This document shows, in pieces, positions 13,757-25,262 of a stretch of DNA of 64,000 bases. The notes below the pieces were generated by a model. The model searched no databases, was not told the origin of the DNA, and saw nothing but the letters and a program-made list of their open reading frames with translations. Position 1 is the stretch's first letter. The number at the start of each line of letters is the position of its first letter. The stretch spans positions 3,378,553 through 3,442,552 of the forward strand of contig OZ025890.1 in NCBI GenBank assembly GCA_964019415.1, given 5' to 3'. The DNA is from Ianthella basta (Eukaryota; Porifera; Demospongiae; Verongiida; Ianthellidae). A program made the translations under genes and the position numbers.

Positions 13757-16582
13757 CTACAGAGCGAATAATTTGGGAGTTTGTTTTGGGTCAAATGATG
13801 AATTCAGTTCTTTGTGGTAAAGTGAATGTATGAATAATATCTGGCATAGTGCATGGGCATGCAAATGTCTGGGACTATCATGTAATTTATTAGCATTAGG
13901 TAAAGAACTGCTCACATGTAGTAGAGAATTCTGTGAGGTCTTTGACTTTGGCATTTTACTATCAAGAGCTCCATACCACTTGTCCATAATATGTAGGAAC
14001 AGAGTTTGTGTAGAATGAGAGGGACGAAAACCACTTTGAAGAGGATGGAGTAGGTTGTTAGTGTGGAGGTGCCATGAGAGCTGGTGATGGATATGTTTCT
14101 CAATTAGTTTACTTGACACTGGAAGGATGGAAATTGGGCGGTAGTTTGAGGGTGTAGAGCAATCACTCCATGGTTTGTCTTCAGTGACAAGTGTCACTTT
14201 TAGAGAAGGCTGGCAGAACCAGGACCAACGAATCTATTGCGCAGCACACCGTGTGGCCTCCGACGCTGACTGCCGCCGAAGCCATCATCCACCACACTAC
14301 CCTGGAGATTGACAGCTCGGATGAATGACGGGCACCCTATTCTAACTGTGTCTACCAGCTCAGTCACAGCGAACTCGCTGAAACATCACACTACAATCGT
14401 GGGAGTCGTGTGAGACAGCTGCCAGGATCTCCTTGGACACCGAGGAGCCTGAGTCCAGGGTGTCACCCGATGGCACCACTCAAGGCTACCTCGTACCTTT
14501 TCCCTGCTGAGAATTTGCACCTCTCCCAGTGGACTCACCATCACAGCTACCATTTTTGCACATAGGAGTGGGGCAGGAGGTGCAGTCTGCAATGGCCCAG
14601 CTGAATAAGTGAAGATGACCAAGCAACTGAACTCTTGTCTCGCTCCCCCCCTTTGGGGGGTCATGTGGCCATTGAACGGCAGCAAGAAAGATAGACAGAC
14701 AGACAGACAGACAGAGCAATCACTGCCCTTGTGAAGTGACTTGATGCAGGGCACACTGTCTTCCAAGTTGATGGACAGCTGGACGAAGCAATGGAGGAGT
14801 TTATGATTGATGACAAGGGATGGCAAATAACTGAGCAAGCAGCAATTAGTGCACAAGAAGGGATGTCATCAAGGCCAGCCGCACACCAAGGTTTAAGGGA
14901 TGCAAGAGTCAGGTTAAATGATTCAGGGGTAGTCTTGGCAAGCACTAGGGTGGAGATAGACTGAGAGGTACAAGGTGAGACTTCTGATAAAGCGGGAGGG
15001 ATAACACTGCACGAGCTCACGGTAGCAAAATGCTGGTTGAGGGTTTTGGCAACGGTGGTGGAATCAGAGCTTAAGAATGACCAGTTGTCTGTGGGTACCT
15101 TTGAAGAAGTCACTTGATTGAGAGTGTTCCAAAGAGCTGAGGGGTGTGATTTCTTATTCAATAGATGTTGAAAGTAGTCTATTTTGGCCTTACTTTGAAG
15201 CCAGACGACACAATTTCATTGTGCCTTGTAAATGTCCCAAGATGCACTAGGAGTGTGTCAGTAAAACCGGTAGAGCCTATCTCTTCTGTCCATATCTTTG
15301 CGTACTGGTTTACTAATCCAAGGAGAAGGTTTCTTTCTAACTCTGACAGTCTTCAGTGGAGCATGCTGATCTAGAACGTCAAGGAACAGGTGGTTGAAGT
15401 GTCAAGTTTATCGTCTGGATCATCAAACACATTTAGAACACACCAGGGCATAGTTGATATATCATCTTCTAAGCTAGTTTGAATGAGTGACGTGAAATGA
15501 AGGTGGGCTGTGGGCGGGGTAATCTCTAGTTGAGTTTGAGAGAAGTAGGTAGACGGTCAGAGAATGAGGATTCAAGAACAGATGAGCTGGAGATGGGTAC
15601 ATCAGGAGTGGCAGGGAAGAGATCTGGAATTGAGGCAGATGAACTGGAAGAACGCATTGGAGAGGAGATAGGCTGAGTGAGAGAGTGTGACATTATGAAA
15701 TCTTGAGCATTGGTTTAGCACGGGCTTTAGAGAGGTCAGACATGTTGATGTTGAAGTCACCAGACACTACCACATACTTTCTATTGAGCATCATAGATTC
15801 TATATCTTTACATACATCATGAACAGATTTAGTAGGAGCATTTGGAGGACAATAAAAACAGCCGACAGTAAGAAAGGGAGTAGAGCAACCAGCCTTAACA
15901 GAAACTCATAGAAACTCAACACCTGAAGGACAAGTACCACAGTTAATCGGAGAACAAGGCAGTTCATTAGAGCAATAAATGGCCACACCTCCACCACAAT
16001 GCTTGTGATCAAACCTGTACACACTGTATTCTGGAAGGTGGGTCTCTTGGTCACTGACCGAGGAGTCTAACCATGTTTCTGAGCGGGCCAAGATGTGGGG
16101 TTGTTCAGTGGTAACAAGAGAGGCAACATTGTCAAAATGTTTGAGCAGACTGCGAGGGTTGGCGTGAATCGTGTGAATCATGTTGAGTTGGTTCTTCTTC
16201 AGTTGCTTCTCTTCAGTAGCAGCTGGTCCAGGATTGACTTCCACATCATCACACTGTAGCAATAAGGTCCAATGGCGACAGAGGACGCTCAAAATGATGG
16301 AGTGCTGCCAGCGATGTTTCTTCTCAAACTCACATAGGTGTGAACAAGCACTTGATGATGAACAGTTGGGCAGCAGGGTTGGGGAGAGCAATTCAGGGCG
16401 ACGTAGTGATTAATGGTAGCAAAGCTGAGACCCCTTAAGCTCTGAAATAGCCAAAAACATGGACAAATGGCAATTCTGCACTCATCTTTCACCGCTACCA
16501 CACCGCGAGCAGCCATCTTGATTTTGCCACATCCATAATATGTATGATGCAGTAATCCAACTTTACCGGAAACATGACTCAT
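13757..16582 (-). pseudogene. CR1/L2-like LINE with 2A motif, endonuclease and RT, broken
   Basis: Read from 16582 downward. The N-terminal ORF (16391 to 15906) has LLLQC followed by DVEVNPGP (16247-16224), a 2A ribosome-skipping motif known from CR1-type LINEs of sponges and echinoderms. The AP endonuclease follows: IHANPRSL, SETWLDSSV, GGGVAIY and, after a frameshift and a stop, VVVSGDFNINM (about 15750). The linker SALWNTLNQVTSS leads to the RT at 15161-14725 (LDDIPS, PLSSIIN) and, after the 545-bp insert, SNYRPISILPVSSKLIEK and LQSGFRPSHSTQ (14140-14020). Frameshifts and stops make it non-coding. The YADD region is missing. Confidence 0.85.
14168..14712 (+). mobile_element. SINE-like retroinsert with AGAC tail
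   Basis: The 12-bp repeat AGAGCAATCACT occurs on both sides (14156-14167 and 14713-14724). The insert ends in a (GACA)n tail, the mark of a LINE-mobilised 3' end. Joining the flanks restores the LINE reading KSLHKGSDCSTPSNYRPIS, so this is a clean insertion into the RT gene. The 545-bp body shows no clear tRNA box and no coding frame. It could be a SINE or a 5'-truncated LINE. Confidence 0.8.
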
Positions 16583-16635
16583 TTACATGTTTTTGCCCGT
16601 TCTGACACTTCCTACACTGCGTGAATAGGCTAAAG

Positions 16636-17747
16636 GCTTCCCAGGTTGTAGAACCATTGCAGCCTAAGAAAGGTTCCAAGGCAAAGGTGAAATAGGGCAG
16701 AAGAGTCTTACCTGCCACTGTTCTGGAAATTGAAAGCAAAGACGAAATGAAGAAGAAACAAAAAGATTTCTATGAGAAGAATGATTGCAACGAGGAGGTG
16801 CTTGAAGATATTGCTGAAGTTCCACCTCCGAAGAAAAAGCATGCAGAGACAACTGGAAACAAGAAAGGGAAAAAGGGAGTAACCATCCTTTGTGTTACAA
16901 AGCCACCAGAACAAGTGCCGGAGCAAAATCATGAATCCGCAGCACCAGAGCTAGAGCAGGAGCTTTCACCATCACCACTTGAACCTGCAACACAAGAGCA
17001 AGTGATAGTACCATCATCAGAGTCCAGCCTTTAACCTGTGACACAAGCCATAGCTTTGGAATCGCCCCTTTCAGACGTGCTTTCACCAGAAGTACCTACA
17101 CAGAGCACTATGCCTTCAGGTTCTGCCACTGCGCAGCCCATCTGGACTCTAGAACTGCAGAAGGTATTTGATGAGCTGAGGGCACAAAGGTACACCTTGC
17201 AAAGCATTGAAGGTTATGTGCATGAGAAGCTCATGGAAGTTCAAGCAATGCAAGATTTGCAAGCAGCAAGGATTCGTGAGCTTCAAGAAAACTGGAGAAT
17301 CAAGATTGCCAGCCAGCTCCCACTACAAGTACACAGGATGAGCCTACACCCCTAGAGCTGACACCAGCTGTTGGACCTCGAATGTACCATAGGGAGGCCT
17401 TTCATAATGTTGAAAATTTCCCCAGTTCCACAGCACTCCGCCTTGCAATCAGAGTACACTGAAATCACCCGCTGATGTGATTGAAGACAACCAAAAGCTA
17501 CTTCTGTCTACCATTAAAGCTGGCCGCCTGGCTGTTAAAATTAGCTAGAGAAAGCTACTTTGGTGAAGAAGTACTGAAAGAAAGCACAGTATCAAGTCTG
17601 CCAAAGGAAAAGCTTAAAGAAATCAAGGCGCAGCTGTACAAAGTCTATCGCTTCAACAATCTAGTGGAATTTGAGCCACTGTGGCAAAAGTGCCTTATTT
17701 CCATTGGCAAGGCCTGCCAGGCACTAAGAGCAAAAGACAGCAATTAA
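16636..17747 (+). pseudogene. BEN-domain protein gene of element A, broken
   Basis: The frame begins before 16640 with VVEPLQPKKGSKAKVK, a stop, then GRRVLPATVLEIESKDEMKK. This resembles the small N-terminal chromatin-reader-like module of sponge BEN proteins. A Lys-rich linker (EVPPPKKK), an acidic Pro/Glu-rich region with a stop near 17032, and a helical segment (LQKVFDELRAQRYTLQSIEGYVHEKLME, given here by its first part LQKVFDELRA) follow. After frame breaks near 17355-17480, the C-terminus 17540-17730 reads LARESYFGEEVL, LPKEKLKEIKAQLYKVYRF and FEPLWQKCLISIGKACQALR, the pattern of a BEN domain (DNA or protein binding). Role in the element is unknown. Confidence 0.65.
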
Positions 17748-17986
17748 CAAACCTGTGCTTAACCCGTGTACATGAATACATGCAGACTCAAACTTTACTG
17801 TATGGCTAGCATACCTGTTAATATTCTATGAGCATGTGTTGTATTGGCATTTATCATTAATACATAATGTCGCATCCATAATTGAGAATGTGACCAAACC
17901 ATCTTCTAGCTATGCAAATCACCTGCAACTGCATGTCTTTGCCTGATAAGAGTATGGGTAGGTGTCATTGAACACATGTGGGTGTT

Positions 17987-17989
<3 letters not shown>

Positions 17990-18063
<74 letters not shown>
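17990..18063 (+). repeat. (TG)n microsatellite
   Basis: Uninterrupted TG dinucleotide run of about 74 bp between the convergent BEN and transposase genes of element A. Confidence 0.98.
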
Positions 18064-18067
<4 letters not shown>

Positions 18068-18406
18068 ACAAGGCCAGGAGGGGAGTAGACTGTGCAACTT
18101 ACGTGCTCCTTGCAATGATTTGAATAGGCTAGCGTACATTCGCGTATGCACATACGTACATACATGCACGCACACACACATTGTGTGTGAGATTGTGTTG
18201 TGTTGCTTGATTGTGTGTATGCATAATGTCATACCGATGCCATACAATTAGGCAAATACGCAGTGCGTGCGTCACACAGCTAGATGGTTTGGACACAAGC
18301 TCAAGGATATGAAACGTTATGAATTAATAAATTGTCAGTACAACACATGCACATAGAGTATATGGGAGTGTCAAGTTACAATACAAGACATGTCTAATGA
18401 GCGTCT

Positions 18407-19408
18407 TTAAAATCCAGTTGGGCCTCCTTCACATTCAATCACTTTGGGTAGGACTTTGGCCAGGTGATTGATATACTTGCGACACTTTGCTACATCAACT
18501 CCTTCCCAAACTGAAACTATTCCCTGAATGAGCTCTTCTTTGTTCTTCGGTTTCACTTCCCTCCTCAGATGCTCTTTCAGTTCGTGCCAAAGGTTTTCTA
18601 TTGGATTACAATCTGGCGACTCAGATGGGGTTTGCCACCAATTTACTCCCTATTCACGAAAGTACTGTTGAGCTCGAGCAGACGTATGCTTTGGATCATT
18701 ATCCTGGACAAATCTGTGCCCACTTGGGTACAGTGCTTCAATCATGGGAATCAAGGTCTGCTCCAAGATGTTAATGTAAGCCACAGCATCCATGCAGCCT
18801 TCAAAAATGAAAATTCCAGATCTCCTTTTCTTGCTTATGGCCGCCCACACATGGACCTTGGTTGGGTGCTTTGGTCTCGGTTTGTACCTTGGTTTAAGGC
18901 CAGACTTGGTGCAGCAGAGTCGCCGATGGGTCTCTATTTGCACAGTTGTCTCATCTGAATAGATGCAGTCTGAGAAGTCACCTCCTTCATTCTTCCTTGC
19001 CCATGCCAATCGCTTTTCTTTATTTACATCACGGATCATCTGACAGTAGGCACTACCACAGCGTGTCCATCCAAGTTCTGTGTGGCATTTCAGTGCAGTT
19101 CTTTCACATATGTGATGTCCATGCTCTAACAACATTTTCTTCAGCTCTTTTCCAGTGGTTTCATCATCTTCCATCATCTTTGCATCCACCAGTCTTCTTA
19201 CTTCAGCACTTATCTTTGTTTTTCGACCTGTACCTTCTTGTCTACCAATAGCACCACACTCCTTGTACTTCTTCAGAAATTTATGGATGCCTTGTCTTGT
19301 GGTCGGAAAATTCTCCTTTGCCAAAACCTTTGCAATTGTGGGAGCTTTGTACCCATCTTGCCAAAGACTAATGATTCTCTGCCTTTCGTACTCACTGAAT
19401 GAAGCCAT
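18407..19408 (-). pseudogene. Tc1/mariner DD34E transposase with one internal stop
   Basis: From the ATG at 19408 (MASFSEYERQRIISLWQDGY) to the TAA at 18407 there are 333 residues, the normal Tc1/mariner length. The N-terminal paired-type helix-turn-helix is followed by GRKTKIS (GRPR-like box). Catalytic residues: D in IYSDETTVQ, D in FVQDNDPKHTS and E in CNPIENLW, with 34 residues between the last two (DD34E). One in-frame TAG (18651-18653) separates YFRE from GVNWWQTP; otherwise the frame is open to PTGF. The stop lies between the second and third catalytic residues, so the product would be inactive without readthrough. Confidence 0.9.
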
Positions 19409-19519
19409 AGACCGTGACATACAGACCAACCTCTCCACTTTGGCAAAGCAACTTGTGCATGAATAGCTAACACGTTCACTCCCTAGCAACGATGGTGATA
19501 ACGATCTGTCAAACTAGGT

Positions 19520-19775
19520 CGTTCTCCGAACGAAGTCGAGCTAACTTTGTTGGCGAACTTGGGCTGACGAACTTCGTACAAATTTCTGGGCAATTTCGCA
19601 CGAACTTCGGTGCAACTTCGAACGAACTTTAATGCAACTTCGAACGATCTTCGGGACAACTTTGAACGACCTTCGGGGCAACTTTGCTCGAACTTAAGAC
19701 ACACTTCGTACGAATTTCCATCCCACTTCGGGCGAACTTCGTACGAAGTACAAGCAAAGTTCGCGAAGAAAGAAC
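19520..19775 (+). repeat. 22-bp minisatellite, element A end
   Basis: About eleven copies of a 22-bp unit near CAACTTCGAACGAACTTCGG. The same unit forms arrays at 24735-24905 and 25145-25262. It abuts the transposase-side end of element A. Confidence 0.9.
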
Positions 19776-20065
19776 TTCGTATGGTAACATAATCTTTGCC
19801 ACTACCGTATAAAGAGAATTGCAAAATGGTTGGCGAAACGGTTGTCCACAAAGTCCTCCTGCAAGCGGCTAACAATCGAGACCAAACTTTCCCACATTTC
19901 CCACGCCATTATAGGGTCTCAATCTAACGGGCAACGTGTGCCAATAAGCTGCTGCCGAGGAGCGCATGGCAAGAAACATCAATTTGACCGTCTGCCATCT
20001 TTGATCTACGAAGAAAGTATATGGTTTTCAGGCACGCTCCTATGACCAAACTTGATCAAATTTTC

Positions 20066-20163
20066 TCCTTATACTGCTTGGTCAAAAATAGAAAATTAGA
20101 TAACGTAGATGCACCTAGATGCATATGCATACTTTGCAGATTATAGAAAGGCCTTTGATTCTA
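20066..20163 (+). pseudogene. LINE RT fragment, 5' of element B
   Basis: Reads LVKNRKLDNVDA and, after a small indel, YAYFADYRKAFDS, the RT motif A region. It stops at the TA used by element B. The sequence continues after the element at 23616 with PRDRLW, so both parts are one broken RT gene. Confidence 0.85.
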
Positions 20164-20381
20164 CAGTACTGATTAGAAATACTGTAGCATGGTAAACGCA
20201 TTCAGTCTGCACGTATGTGCGGTCTGCGCACGGTTACGCTCACGTAAACGCAAAGTTAACATTTTGATATGTGCAAAATAGCTGTGCAATGACGTATATG
20301 GCCGCCGCTTCGTACGTAAACAATATAATCAAAGTGTGATAACCCCGTGTATATACGAAAGTGAGAGAGCTATGCCTAGAC

Positions 20382-21389
20382 ATGTCTACCTACGTGAGGG
20401 AAAAAATTGTTGCTTTGTGGGAGGAAGGAAAGCCTCTTTCCGAATCCTAAAGACTTTGGAGTCCGAAGGGAGAAGAACTTCATGCACTACTGTACAGAGA
20501 TGGGTGTTCAGGTGGAGAACCAATCGTGGTTTGAGGGATCAACATTGTTCTGGACGTTGCTCAAGGATCACGTCAGAAATAGCTGCTTTTATCGAAAGAA
20601 TCCTGCAGGAAGTCAATGAAATAACCTCTGTAGAACTGCAGAGGTTACTATTCAGGAAGTTCTCCATCAACATTAGTGCACCCACCATACGAAGGTACAT
20701 ACGAATGCACCTGAAGTGGATAGTCGTGCGCATAAGGTTTGGCCCCATGATTTCAGAGAAAAACAAGGCCAAAAGAAGTAAATTTGCACAAATGTGTCTG
20801 GACACAAAGGACACATTTGAGAACGTCATCTGGACAGACGAGAGTTCAGTACAGCTGACATGTCATAGTCAGACAATGAGGGTGAAGATTGGGAAAGAAC
20901 ATGTGCTGAAGCCTGCCCCAAAACATGCTGTCAAGGTGCATGTGTGGGCAGGGATCTCTAAGAGAGGGGCCACCAACATGTATTTTTGACCAAATAATGG
21001 ACGGTGTGCTGTACACCCAAATCTTGGAGAAGCATCTGCTTCCCTTTCTTGAGGAATAGTTTTGGGGCACCGAATATCGTTTCATGCAGGATAATGATCC
21101 CAAACACACTAGTCGGGTTGCCAAAGACTTCTATCAAGAAAAGGGCATCAACCGGTGGCCAACACCTGCCAGTAGTGCGGATTTCAATCCCATTGAATGT
21201 GCATGGAGGGAATTGAAGCATTACATTGCCCGTCATGTCAAGCCCCTGAATAAGAAATAACTGGTCGATGGAATTTGCTTATTTTGGAGAAAGAGGATGT
21301 CATCAGCAAAATGTATCAAGTACATTGATCACACCTTCGCTGTCTTGCCAAAGATTGTGGCAAAGGAAGGAGGGATTACAGGAGAGTGA
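20382..21389 (+). pseudogene. Tc1/mariner DD34E transposase of element B, broken
   Basis: ATG at 20382 (MSTYVREKIVALWEEGKP), a frameshift near 20440, then ILKTLESEGRRTS, the RWRTNRGLR block and SRITSEIAAF (second half of the helix-turn-helix). Catalytic residues: WTDESSVQL, FMQDNDPKHTS and NPIECAW, the last two 34 residues apart. Further damage: frameshift near 20982 and stops at about 21057 and 21258. The stop codon is TGA at 21387. It differs strongly from the transposase of element A, so the two elements are not recent copies of each other. Confidence 0.9.
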
Positions 21390-21499
21390 AACTTTGTAAC
21401 TGTTTTTATGCAGAATATTTGTTACAGTTACTATTTACGAGTTATTATTATATATTGTTATGTTGACCATGTTTGGCATTTGAATGGATCGGACTCACA

Positions 21500-23328
21500 C
21501 TAAACTTTGTGCATATCAATTATGGACCCAGTAGCTGACTCAATTGTTCCAAAGCTATCAACTTTCGAGGGTATTACACAAAACAATAATAATAGAGCAA
21601 CAAGTAGTGTATGATCTGACAAAAGTATATACAGTACAATAACATTATCCAAAAAGATAGTGAGTGTTTGCCTAAAGTTGGTAAAAATGATCCTATTAGT
21701 GGACCTGGCAAGCTGCCGACAGCTGCTGTCAATGGACCGCCTGTACTCTCTCCACATAACTTCCTCAGTCTGTCCTGGCTTCATTGGATAGATAGAATAT
21801 ATGGCGCTTTTGACAGCTGCCATCCTGTTCGGTGACAGCTGCCTCTTCCCTACTCCTGCACAATTTGAAGTGGCTCTCTCAAATTTTGAGAAGCACTTCC
21901 TAACCAACTGCACTGCCAGGTTCTGTTCAGAGTTGGTTGCTTTGTAGCAGTCAGCAATGACATCGCGTTTGATCCTCAAAGGTGATGACGAGCCGTCATT
22001 CTCAAACACTGCTTCACGATCAATTGAGTCTTCTGATGGTCTAAGCTCAGTGTGATGATATGGGGTGTGTGGATGCACTTGACGTTGAAATGGTCCAAGT
22101 GGGTGTGATTAGTAAGGGGTGTGTGGGTGTACAGGACCAGGTGGGTAGGATGACTGTGGGGTGTGTGGGTGTACAGGACCATGTGGGTAAGATGACTGTG
22201 GGGTGTATATGGGTGTACAGGACCAGGTGGGTAGGATGACTGTGGGGTGTGTGGGTGTACAGGACCATGTGGGTAAGATGACTGTGGGGTGTATGGGTGT
22301 ACAGGACCAGATGGGTAGGATGACTGTGGGGTGTGTGGGTGTACAGGACCAGGTAGGTAGGATGAGTAAAGGGGTGCGTGAGTGTACAGGACTGGGTGGG
22401 TAGGATAAGTGTGGGGTGTGTGGGTGTATAGGACCAGGTGGGTAGGATGAGTGTGGGGTGTGTTGGTGTACAGGACCAGGTGGGTAGGATGACTGTGGGG
22501 TGTATGGGTGTACAGGACCAGGTGGGTAGGATGAGTGTGGGGTGTGTGGGTGTACAGGACCAGGTGGGTAGGATGAGTGTGGGGTGTGTGGGTGTACAGG
22601 ACCAGGTAGGTAGGATGAGTGTGGGGTGTGTGGGTGTACAGGACCAGGTAGGTAGGATGACTGTGGGGTGTGTGGGTGTACAGGATCAGGTGGGTGCAGC
22701 ACAGATGGATGGGACTCATAAGGGGTGGAGTATGAGGAGTAATGAGGGGGTGGGTGTTGCACGTGCTGTGGAGATGGGTGTGATGAGTGATGTGGGGATG
22801 GGTACAATGAGTGATTTGGGGATGAGTGATGTGGAGGTGAGTACAAAGATTGGTGCGGGGGCTGGGGTGAACACAGGAGTGAAGAGTGTGGAGAACTGGA
22901 TAGTTGCTGTGACAGTGGGGAAGTAAGTGTGTTTGTAATCTCACTCAAAGCTCTCCTGGGTTCTTCTTCAACCTCTTCACACTGCTCACTTCTTCCTTTG
23001 CTGGCGAGCCATTTCCCAAAAACAGGGGCTTCTTTTGCCTCTTGCTGGCTGTCTTGGGCTTTGGTGCCATTTTAGTAGCACAAGAACTCTTCCTTCTACA
23101 CTGCTTAGGGAGCTTCCAGTCAAGCAGGTCCACTACCTTGGCTTGGTAGCAACAGGAATTAAGCTTCATGGTCACTACACTGTCTTTGATGATGTCTCCA
23201 ATCACGTGCTTGACATTCACGCGATTCGTTGTTCCTTTATCTTTGGAGACCAGCCACTCTACAAAGATTTCGTTCCTTCTCCGAGCCATTCTTCTTCTTT
23301 GAGATACGATAATGCCTTGAAATGACAC
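21500..23328 (-). pseudogene. BEN-domain protein gene of element B, with proline-rich repeats
   Basis: Starts at the ATG at 23328 (MSFQGIIVSQRRRMARRRNE) or the later MARRR. The N-terminal module has FVEWLVSKDKGTTNRVNV and CYQAKVVDLLDWKLP, then a basic linker (PKPKTASKRQKKP). After a frame change near 22950 comes a Pro/His-rich region whose 42-bp DNA repeat encodes 14-residue repeats around YPPGPVHPHTPHSS. The C-terminus (22078 down to 21700) has LAVQLVRKCFSKFE, SNCAGVGKRQLSPNRMAAVK, and WREYRRSIDSSCRQLAR, a clear BEN domain. Frame changes inside the repeat array suggest decay. BEN domains bind DNA or chromatin proteins; the role here is unknown. Confidence 0.8.
22092..22692 (-). repeat. 42-bp coding minisatellite
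   Basis: About fourteen copies of a 42-bp unit containing GTGTACAGGACCAGGTGGGT. The unit is a multiple of three, so changes in copy number keep the BEN-protein frame, apart from a few units of 43 or 45 bp. Confidence 0.95.
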
Positions 23329-23615
23329 TTCCGAGCAGGAAGGTAGGTGTTAATAGCTCGTACCCAATGACGTTGCGAACAAAACTAAATGCAGACTGTA
23401 GCTACGCTGTATCGAATCAAGCGGTGAAGGTTTCTTGACGATTTCAGAAGAGAAAACCCGTTATTAGCCTTCTCTGTTACGAGAGAAGATTGGATACAAT
23501 TATTGTGCTAATAACAGCGTTTAACTCTGTATACGCGCAAAACACGTACGCATGCGCGCAGTCACTAGCGCTAGGTATGCGTTTATTTGGTACAGTATTT
23601 CTAATCAGTACAGTA

Positions 23616-24201
23616 TACCTAGGGACCGACTGTGGCAAAAATGGCTAGAAATGGAATTAATGACCAAATGTTACATTGTTCTAAAGCACTATACAAAAAT
23701 ACATATAGTCAAATCAAGATCAATAATGAATTCACCAGACCACTTACGGTTGATTGTGGCACGAAACAAGGCTGCACTCTCTCCCCAACCCTATTTAATA
23801 TCTATATTTATGACTTACTCGACTGTCTGCAGCAGGAGGCAAATGGAATTGGCTTTGGGGAATGTAACATTACTGCCCTACTTTACGCAGATGATTCAGT
23901 CATATTAGGGGACTCACCATCCACACTACAGATGCTACTGGATGCATTGGATGACTGGTGTGAGCCCAATGGAATGGTGATCAATCGAGATAAAACTAAA
24001 GTTGTACATTTTAGGCATAATAGGAAAGAAATTTGTCAAACTGTGTTTTCATGTGGCGGAACTTTTATTGGCTACACTAATTGCTACAAATACTTGGGGG
24101 TACAATTTACAGAACACCTTAACTGGACAAAGCTTATAGAATGCACTTCTATTTCAGCCAGTAGGGAAGCAAGCTACCTAATAGATGATAATATGATGTA
24201 A
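23616..24201 (+). pseudogene. LINE RT fragment, 3' of element B
   Basis: PRDRLWQK, a one-base loss in an A run (about 23637), then ARNGINDQMLHC, CGTKQGCTLSPTLFNIYI (motif B), ALLYADDSVIL (catalytic motif C, 23876-23908), and INRDKTKVVHF and YKYLGVQF (motif D/E). The frame stops at 24199. The family is jockey/CR1-like or related; clade not assigned. With 20066-20163 it forms one gene split by element B. Confidence 0.85.
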
Positions 24202-24734
24202 TTTGAAAATGGTTGCCAGTAGCCAGAACTAAGAATGAACTTAGTTTATATCCCTGTGCAGCCAACCCCGACTCTATTAAGCATACACCAACTCTTCTAA
24301 AGTTATTTAGATGATTTAGGCCATTACGTACATCCTGTTGGATGTACACTTTACAGCAATTTACTAAGAGAGAATCTTTCATATCTGGAAATCATGGCTA
24401 AATCTGAACTCACGGTAAAGAGTACACAAGACACATTACTGTCACATTACCACAAACATATACTCACTGAATGATGAACTTCATCTGGTGGATACTTAAA
24501 CGTTGGCCCAAAATTGGCTTCAACCTAAGTATTGAAAAGGACCACTGATACATATGGGCAACACAATGACAAGAAACCGGTGAAACATACAACTCACTTG
24601 GCTTCTGGCTATGCCTTCTAGACCATTGGCAACCCTACATCCCCAGCAACTAACTGAACTACAGACTTATGTAACGAACTACTGTCAGTGCTTGAGATAT
24701 CAATCCTTATACGGTAGGCAAAAAATATGTTACC
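24202..24734. other. No gene recognised
   Basis: Probably the decayed 3' tail of the LINE. No domain, terminal repeat or RNA gene was seen. Confidence 0.4.
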
Positions 24735-25262
24735 ATTATGAAGTGAACTTTGTTCGATAACTTTGTGTGAACTTAGTATAAGCTTCGGGCCAGCTTCGTA
24801 TGAACTTACAGCCAACTTCGATCAAACTTCAGACCAACTTTGCTCAAACTTCGAACTAACTTTGCTTGAACTTTAGGCCAACTTCGTACAAATTTTGTCA
24901 TTCCCCAAGGCTGTAGAGCCATCACAGCAAAAATATGGACCAATTACAAATGCATAAAGTGAACTTGATTCTTACCTGCCACTCTTGAAATTGGGAATGA
25001 AGATGAATTGAAGACTGAAGTCATATAGCTTGCAATATGGAGGCCAACTCTTTACTTCCAAAACTACTTGTGCATGATTAGCTAGCATGTTCACTCCCTA
25101 GTAACACTGGTGCTAACGATAGCGATCTATCAGTCTGTCGAACTGCAAATGAAGGCCAGCTTTAAACGAACTTCGCTGCAACTTCGAACAAAATTTGGGG
25201 CAACTTCGAGCGAACTTTAGGCCTACTTTGAATGAACTTCGATCCCACTTCGTGTTCTGTAG
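24735..25262. mobile_element. Short deletion derivative of element A
   Basis: 22-bp repeat array (24735-24905), then the BEN-gene start (GGCTGTAGAGCCATCACAGC... CTTACCTGCCACTCTTG, 24905-25030), fused directly to the transposase-side end (ACTTGTGCATGATTAGCTAG and GTTCACTCCCTAG, 25060-25105) and a second 22-bp array (25145-25262). Both genes of element A have been lost in between. It shows how the two ends of the full element are related. Confidence 0.7.

Follow-up and report, generated by a model that had tools for sequence, protein, structure and literature searches.

Transposons of the Tc1/mariner superfamily usually hold a single transposase gene in 1.3-2 kb, a form that is not strictly defining, and the cut-and-paste action of such transposases is established for the superfamily. 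Typically the transposase is the only protein encoded, and the nearest precedent for additional genes is TBE of the ciliate Oxytricha, a telomere-bearing Tc1/mariner element whose accessory proteins, a 57-kDa zinc-finger/kinase and a 22-kDa protein without predicted domains, are under purifying selection (PMC12242761; this and all other sources are cited from excerpts). PIF/Harbinger elements encode a transposase together with a partner that binds subterminal DNA (PMC9710019), and in VANDAL elements of Arabidopsis the transposon-coded VANC protein acts on specific element sequences and serves as a model for anti-silencing (PMC5735166). The BEN domain is familiar from host genes such as BEND3, which has four BEN domains, and BANP, in which a coiled coil is combined with a DNA-binding domain at the C-terminus; both proteins bind unmethylated CpG (PMC11472053). 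Here we describe two tandem insertions, element A (16630..19809) and element B (20164..23613), in a 64,000-nucleotide stretch of the sponge Ianthella basta (contig OZ025890.1, positions 3,378,553 to 3,442,552; hereafter the window, whose own numbering is used unless a contig is named). The initial annotation had assigned to each a DD34E transposase and, tail to tail with it, a BEN-domain gene, a description that stands for element B and is probable for the second gene of element A.

Comparison with these systems places the elements within Tc1/mariner but apart from the members compared here. Like the Sleeping Beauty group, they have a DD34E transposase with helix-turn-helix parts, inverted ends and a TA duplication, but they are 3.2-3.8 kb long and carry a second conserved gene. 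Their accessory gene encodes a BEN domain, unlike those of TBE, and no telomeric repeat is seen by eye in their ends. PIF/Harbinger elements have a transposase of another superfamily and a Myb/SANT/MADF partner, whereas here the transposase is DDE_3/Sleeping Beauty-like and the partner is a BEN protein whose binding to subterminal DNA is predicted. A transposon-coded protein predicted to act on specific element sequences is also the point of likeness to VANDAL; VANDAL transposases and VANC belong to unrelated families, with no BEN. We interpret the elements as a clade of two-gene Tc1/mariner transposons with a resident BEN protein that binds their CpG-rich ends, a reading to which we give a probability of about 0.6. 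The anatomy of the two-gene element is, by itself, close to certain. A BEN gene inside a Tc1/mariner element was not found described in the literature surveyed, including the excerpts of PMC4574769, PMC4190172, PMC5704228 and PMC11075544; an earlier mention in Repbase or in subscription journals is possible.

Element B and its young family

Element B is a complete Tc1/mariner insertion of 3450 bp, delimited by its inverted arms, by the near-identical ends of its relatives and by its empty site. The arms (20162-20189 and 23588-23615) span 28 nt with 93% complementarity and include a TA duplication at 20162-20163 and 23614-23615. With the flanks joined, the sequence again reads as a long interspersed nuclear element (LINE) reverse transcriptase, ADYRKAFDSIPRDRLWQK, a fragment of which forms the right flank of the site (23616..24201, + strand), the left flank being at about 20100-20163. 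The left terminal inverted repeat (TIR; 20164..20189, + strand) starts with CAGTACTGATTAGAAATACTG and is followed by a CpG-rich subterminal stretch to about 20281; the corresponding stretch at the other end begins at about 23456 and leads to the right TIR (23588..23613, - strand). Both genes thus lie between matching terminal repeats with a TA duplication, as had been noted from the window alone. The transposase gene (20372..21386, + strand) is frame-broken, its two matched pieces (C23:3398924-3399535 and 3399510-3399938) being 77% and 80% identical to an intact relative of 340 amino acids (aa). Convergent with it is the BEN gene (21503..23289, - strand), made up of an N-terminal module (23100-23289), a linker of 42-nt repeats (about 22112-22746) and the BEN domain (21677-22051), all on the - strand. 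Within open reading frame (ORF) 21503-22078 (- strand), the BEN model PF10523 scores 28.1 bits against a cut-off of 23.2; judging from the ORFs, the gene has one frameshift, near 22948, and one in-frame stop, near 22107. Because both of its genes are broken, element B is a dead copy, inserted into a LINE.

The identity of the transposase is clearest in the intact B-type relative, which scores 57.7 bits with DDE_3 (cut-off 28.6) and in which, by eye, D157, D242 and the E of NPIE form the DD34E triad, with 34 residues between the last two. Sleeping Beauty SB100X is its sole match in the PDB at E up to 0.01 (2.7e-22). DD34E/DDE_3, inverted repeats and the TA duplication are all found in element B and its family, and the element A transposase matches DDE_3 with 77.3 bits in genome-wide ORF scoring and with 30.7 bits in part 18653-19489. 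The usual single-gene form of 1.3-2 kb is not seen: as the initial annotation had remarked of the window's elements, the size is greater, at 3.2-3.8 kb, and two genes are present in 11 of 12 copies.

A DNA search with the left end of element B gave at least 40 scored places in the 209-Mb genome, and 20 genomic regions were taken, 13 around copies of the close sub-family and 7 around copies resembling miniature inverted-repeat transposable elements (MITEs). Recognisable ends are present in 12 B-type copies, including one with an altered right end (L014). Eleven of the 12 contain both genes, the exception (L010) having an internal deletion, and the thirteenth sub-family region (L021) holds a damaged copy. 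The 11 two-gene copies are pairwise 97.3-99.8% identical. Their transposase ORF is open throughout (with 339 aa in L017 and, in the matched frame, 340 aa in the rest), and the BEN ORF is open over 513-563 aa in seven, being broken in L011, L012, L013 and L020. Element B therefore belongs to a young family with recent copies, and the flanks differ among these copies. TA stands at both ends of the B-type copies, but the expression used to find the ends required it; independent evidence for the duplication comes from the empty site of element B.

The ends also provide a way to look for partial elements. A degenerate end pattern matched the genome 139 times, against 0 for the reversed control, and facing pairs were analysed among 100 of these matches. 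Thirty-one facing pairs were listed: 22 of 356-942 bp, one of 1657 bp, seven of 3.2-3.4 kb and one of 5.2 kb. The eight largest are all among the 11 fetched copies with both genes, and the 1657-bp pair is L010, whose internal deletion retains part of the transposase. Size was the criterion for the shorter pairs other than L010 and the fetched MITE-type loci. Copies with the same TIRs around a transposase only, which the initial annotation had named as evidence against itself, were not encountered: none of the 31 pairs listed is of a size fitting an intact-transposase element without the BEN gene, and L010 is a deletion derivative. At five of the seven MITE-type loci the two ends lie close together, one matching roughly the initial 117 bases of B and the other its final 272. 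A second MITE-sized group has the related ends TACAGTAGCGATTAAAAATA / TACTGTACCGATTAAAAATA and variants, in pairs of 880-942 bp (for example C1:16234718-16235627).

Pairing of the two genes across the genome

Searches with the B-type transposase, the A-type transposase, three BEN-type queries and the Pfam BEN model were merged, with BEN queries accepted to E 1 and the Pfam search to E 10, and ignoring introns. From the A-type transposase search 57 of 139 matches were used, those dropped being duplicates of the B-type search and short low-scoring fragments; from one BEN-type query 22 of 29 were used, and those of another were merged by eye without the ones already in the B-type BEN search. We call a place long if the merged place spans at least 900 bases, which is not the same as an intact ORF. 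The merged set has 118 transposase places: at 62 a facing BEN-type gene lies downstream, at 23 the two genes are head-to-head, and at 33 no BEN-type gene was found. An opposite-strand BEN-type gene lies within 3.5 kb of 49 of the 55 long places (40 tail-to-tail, 9 head-to-head), where chance would supply such a neighbour at about 0.4%. Other Tc1/mariner families of the genome provide a clean internal control: long DDE_3 ORFs (at least 300 aa) have an opposite-strand BEN-type gene within 4 kb in 38 of 41 cases in the clade, compared with 0 of 16 in those families (Fisher p 1.7e-11). This comparison used 83 of 146 ORF rows from a scoring that covered 150 of 221 candidates; one clade ORF of at least 300 aa that was left out (C2:6528362) has a facing BEN place within 3.5 kb and would give 39 of 42. 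The BEN protein queries came from the clade and could therefore miss a very divergent BEN gene next to other families; the Pfam model is of general scope. These counts support the earlier suggestion that the pairing is maintained.

Viewed from the BEN side, such a transposase is the neighbour of 32 of the 35 BEN domains that exceed the Pfam cut-off, and of 40 when all 46 domains listed are counted. The opposite case, in which BEN genes occur as ordinary host genes without TIRs, had been set against the pairing at the outset; it is at odds with the Pfam-grade domains and finds some room among the remaining BEN-type places, 56 of 135 of which have no opposite-strand transposase within 3.5 kb. 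Most of these are short, with nine spanning more than 700 bases, and they may be decayed elements, elements with an unscored transposase or genes outside elements. At C9:4140155-4140523, a BEN domain 56% identical to that of the element is part of a 525-aa open frame, and no transposase was found up to 3.5 kb away; this is possibly a host-recruited copy, or an element that lost its transposase. BEN fragments of the head-to-head group, on the same strand and with no transposase found nearby, are scattered over tens to hundreds of kb at C5:4333886-4769998 (N-terminal) and C7:5473493-5551301 (BEN end).

Two arrangements of the genes are found. The B-type, A-type and 333-aa families have them tail-to-tail, with one A-type fragment place deviating, and the BEN gene is head-to-head in a group whose transposases are 35-44% identical to B-type. 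The difference goes back either to a rearrangement of the pair inside the element or to two separate acquisitions of a related gene. The 333-aa transposase family, which appeared from protein queries to lack BEN, does not: the Pfam search shows a convergent BEN at three of its four places. Beyond this genome, no relatives were found in prokaryote contigs (searched with the transposase and its alignment) or in viral contigs (searched with both and the BEN alignment), which says nothing about animals.

Purifying selection on both genes was shown in an analysis of nine sequences. Leaving aside the near-identical pair L041-L049, the proportions of synonymous and nonsynonymous differences between families (pS and pN) are 0.52-0.96 and 0.12-0.32 for the transposase and 0.60-0.89 and 0.13-0.41 for the BEN domain. 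The ratio of nonsynonymous to synonymous substitution rates (dN/dS), proposed by the initial annotation as a check on the BEN ORF, is 0.11-0.17 for BEN and 0.15-0.19 for the transposase where dS is finite, including 0.11 for BEN between element B and a young relative; L041-L049 gives 0.88 for BEN on about 1% divergence, too little to judge. In trees of eight families the main groups of the two genes are compatible, and the distances of the two genes correlate (r 0.58, a value reached by 72 of 40320 permutations). That the genes have mostly been kept together through long evolution suggests that the second protein may help the element to move or to escape silencing.

The BEN protein, the CpG-rich ends and a possible role

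The protein of the second gene begins with a conserved module, continues through a repeat linker that contains a D-box-like motif, and ends in the BEN domain. Tested against the BEN profile, as had been recommended, the proteins divide: B-type and group I domains exceed the cut-off (28.0, 25.0 and 25.4 bits in group I), element A has no Pfam hit, and in the head-to-head group L059 falls under it at 15.7 bits while others score up to 25.6 (C14). The head-to-head protein of L059 is 339 aa long: the N-terminal module is joined by a stretch that looks by eye like a coiled coil and by a BEN-like C-terminus, which aligns with the group I BEN domains, with 29% identity to the first. The best solved-structure matches of the BEN profile are BEND3 (6.5e-13) and BANP (1.1e-5), and the 22 PDB sequences listed up to E 10 include no chain of NACC1, BEND6 or a Drosophila BEN protein. 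BEN domains bind DNA sequence-specifically through helix alpha-5, and equivalents of BANP D312, S313, R316 and R320 are kept in most group I families (our alignment to the numbering of PMC11472053 and PMC10206803). L050 differs in having N at the D312 position, and L048 in having T at that of S313; L059 keeps D312 and R316. In the linker, [WF]LxxG[SFY]PA is seen by eye in the group I families with the linker start in hand, and Lxx[LIVM][TS]N occurs in all seven sequences, L059 included, fitting the D-box consensus RxxLxx[LIVM]xN in four. The N-terminal module, called reader-like in the initial annotation, is conserved across relatives and has no Pfam match; for the SH3-like barrel expected of a Tudor or chromo reader, a PDB profile search with the module's alignment gave no convincing match (best E 0.0034, no stretch passing alone). 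By eye, an apparent intron follows the basic N-terminal tail of the BEN gene in L050 and L043-L047 and is absent from the young B-type family.

The element ends are distinctive in composition. Across 12 B-type copies, the ratio of observed to expected CpG is 1.12-1.25 over the leftmost 120 bp and 1.37-1.62 over the rightmost 160 bp, as compared with 0.39-0.84 inside and 0.29-0.71 in the flanks (mean 0.41 in flank windows). Among 1281 windows of 120 bp from the flanks, 2.9% attain 1.25. The left ends of three other families have values of 1.42-1.94. MITE copies were measured at five of the seven loci, four of them giving 1.47-1.60 on the left and 1.52-1.57 on the right, and L028 giving 1.17 and 0.63. 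In the tail-to-tail families these CpG-rich ends adjoin the starts of both genes.

From the CpG-rich ends and from BEND3 and BANP as nearest relatives, we infer that the BEN protein may bind the element ends, which we regard as an even bet. Gene 1 is an ordinary DD34E cut-and-paste transposase, and gene 2 encodes a resident BEN-domain protein that would bind CpG-rich subterminal DNA at both ends. Since the ends adjoin both gene starts in the tail-to-tail families, such binding could keep promoters and ends open and unmethylated and assist the transposase in engaging the ends, a part comparable to that of the Myb-like protein in Harbinger or of VANC in VANDAL.

Several observations weigh against this interpretation. 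The ends could be rich in CpG for a different reason, for instance because of promoter composition. No BEN-type gene was found at 33 of the 118 merged transposase places or at 6 of the 55 long ones, and the lone BEN-type places (56 of 135) count on the same side. The distance test treats eight families as independent, and tree support is mostly moderate. Two accessory proteins of TBE showed no specific DNA binding in tests in E. coli (PMC12242761). At the position of the CpG-reading arginine (R316 in our alignment), which is kept in group I and L059, element A has glutamine. Single-sequence AlphaFold2 models of the window's own pieces had predicted confidence scores (pLDDT) of 53 for the N-terminal module, where modelling failed, and 45 for the BEN region.

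Among other explanations, the one that survives best is that the BEN protein is a transposition cofactor, serving nuclear import, end pairing or target choice rather than anti-silencing, as in the two-gene PIF/Harbinger elements. The architecture, with one DNA-binding partner, is consistent with this, and transposition of Harbinger3_DR requires its Myb-like partner, which binds to a 9-bp motif in the subterminal DNA (PMC9710019). MITE-type copies, which retain little of B beyond its ends, about 117 bp of one and 272 bp of the other, fit as well. Most Tc1/mariner transposases, on the other hand, need no partner, and all 16 of the other long Tc1/mariner ORFs are without a BEN-type gene found beside them, so that a cofactor role is a possibility we hold tentatively. 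It is more doubtful that the protein limits its own element by repressing the transposase promoter, which would favour a low copy number and tolerance by the host; BEND3 does repress transcription (PMC11472053), and full-length B-type elements are modest in number, with 98-100% identity found at 11 transposase places. Many animals have BEN genes and most of the lone BEN-type places are short fragments, which leaves a little room for a captured host gene that hitch-hikes as a passenger without helping the element. Such a passenger is very improbable given purifying selection across families near synonymous saturation, the pairing at 49 of 55 long places in two gene arrangements, and the finding that only 3 of 35 Pfam-grade BEN domains lie away from such a transposase. 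A chance neighbourhood or assembly artefact is negligible, being refuted for the B-type family by 11 copies with the same ends and gene order in different flanks; the chance expectation of about 0.4% also counts against it.

If the two-gene reading with a resident, end-binding BEN protein is right, its bearing is wider than one sponge. Tc1/mariner elements are textbook one-gene transposons, and a near-constant BEN second gene in a deep animal clade would show that the superfamily can evolve a transposase partner or a counter to silencing. As 32 of the 35 Pfam-grade BEN domains here lie beside these transposases, the BEN genes tallied in invertebrate genomes may in part be transposons. A direct, testable prediction of binding follows from the CpG-rich ends together with the relationship to BEND3 and BANP. 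An unlikely but wider proposal is that BEN is in part a transposon domain, the lineage's own reader of unmethylated CpG at its ends, and that many animal BEN genes, multi-copy ones included, are its cargo or were recruited from it, as proposed for HARBI1/NAIF1 from Harbinger.

Element A and its surroundings

Element A is a related two-gene element with boundaries common to its relatives and to MITE-like copies. Its right end, at about 19809, is the only one resolved; BLAST found no inverted repeat longer than 10 nt between the two flanks. Matches to relatives begin at 16630 or at most 6 bases off, with one exception 116 bases further in. Position 16630 was ruled out as the true end, since in L019, at C1, the N-terminal module of the A-type element runs on upstream of that point, and the left side is therefore interrupted there in the window. 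The transposase gene (18413..19399, - strand) has one in-frame TAG. Convergent with it, the second gene (16630..17747, + strand) has frameshifts and stops and comprises a truncated N-terminal module, a linker and a probable divergent BEN domain at 17481-17747. This C-terminal domain has no Pfam match and matches the BEN profile weakly (hhalign E 0.0013 for one comparison, probability 18%), so that its identity as BEN is probable from position, architecture and weak matches.

The identity of the element A transposase is 36-41% with the intact relative of B and, over the part that matches, 29% with B itself, in agreement with the earlier judgement that neither is a recent copy of the other. The nine best relatives of element A have transposases 70-91% identical to its own. 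Frames are open on both sides in three A-type pairs (transposase and BEN side, respectively): 406 and 406 aa at C5, 377 and 358 aa at C3:11230930, and 376 and 357 aa at C18:5119333. The A-type pair is thus also maintained.

An A-type element lies at most 2.5 kb from 3 of 14 B-type copies (11 full, L010, L021 and the window's B), always on the B-type transposase side. By rough arithmetic this is far above chance, an estimate that repeat-rich regions inflate. The intervals concerned are 19809-20164 in the window, C5:1482844-1485254 and C1:1126637 to about 1127176 (L019). Just past element B, 24704-25252 is a second A-type end or a MITE. On the other side, an abundant repeat of up to 91 bp (16539-16629), with many relatives 83-89% identical, abuts the interrupted left side of element A. 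Tandem repeats of 22 bp occupy 19548-19761 within the transposase-side end of element A.

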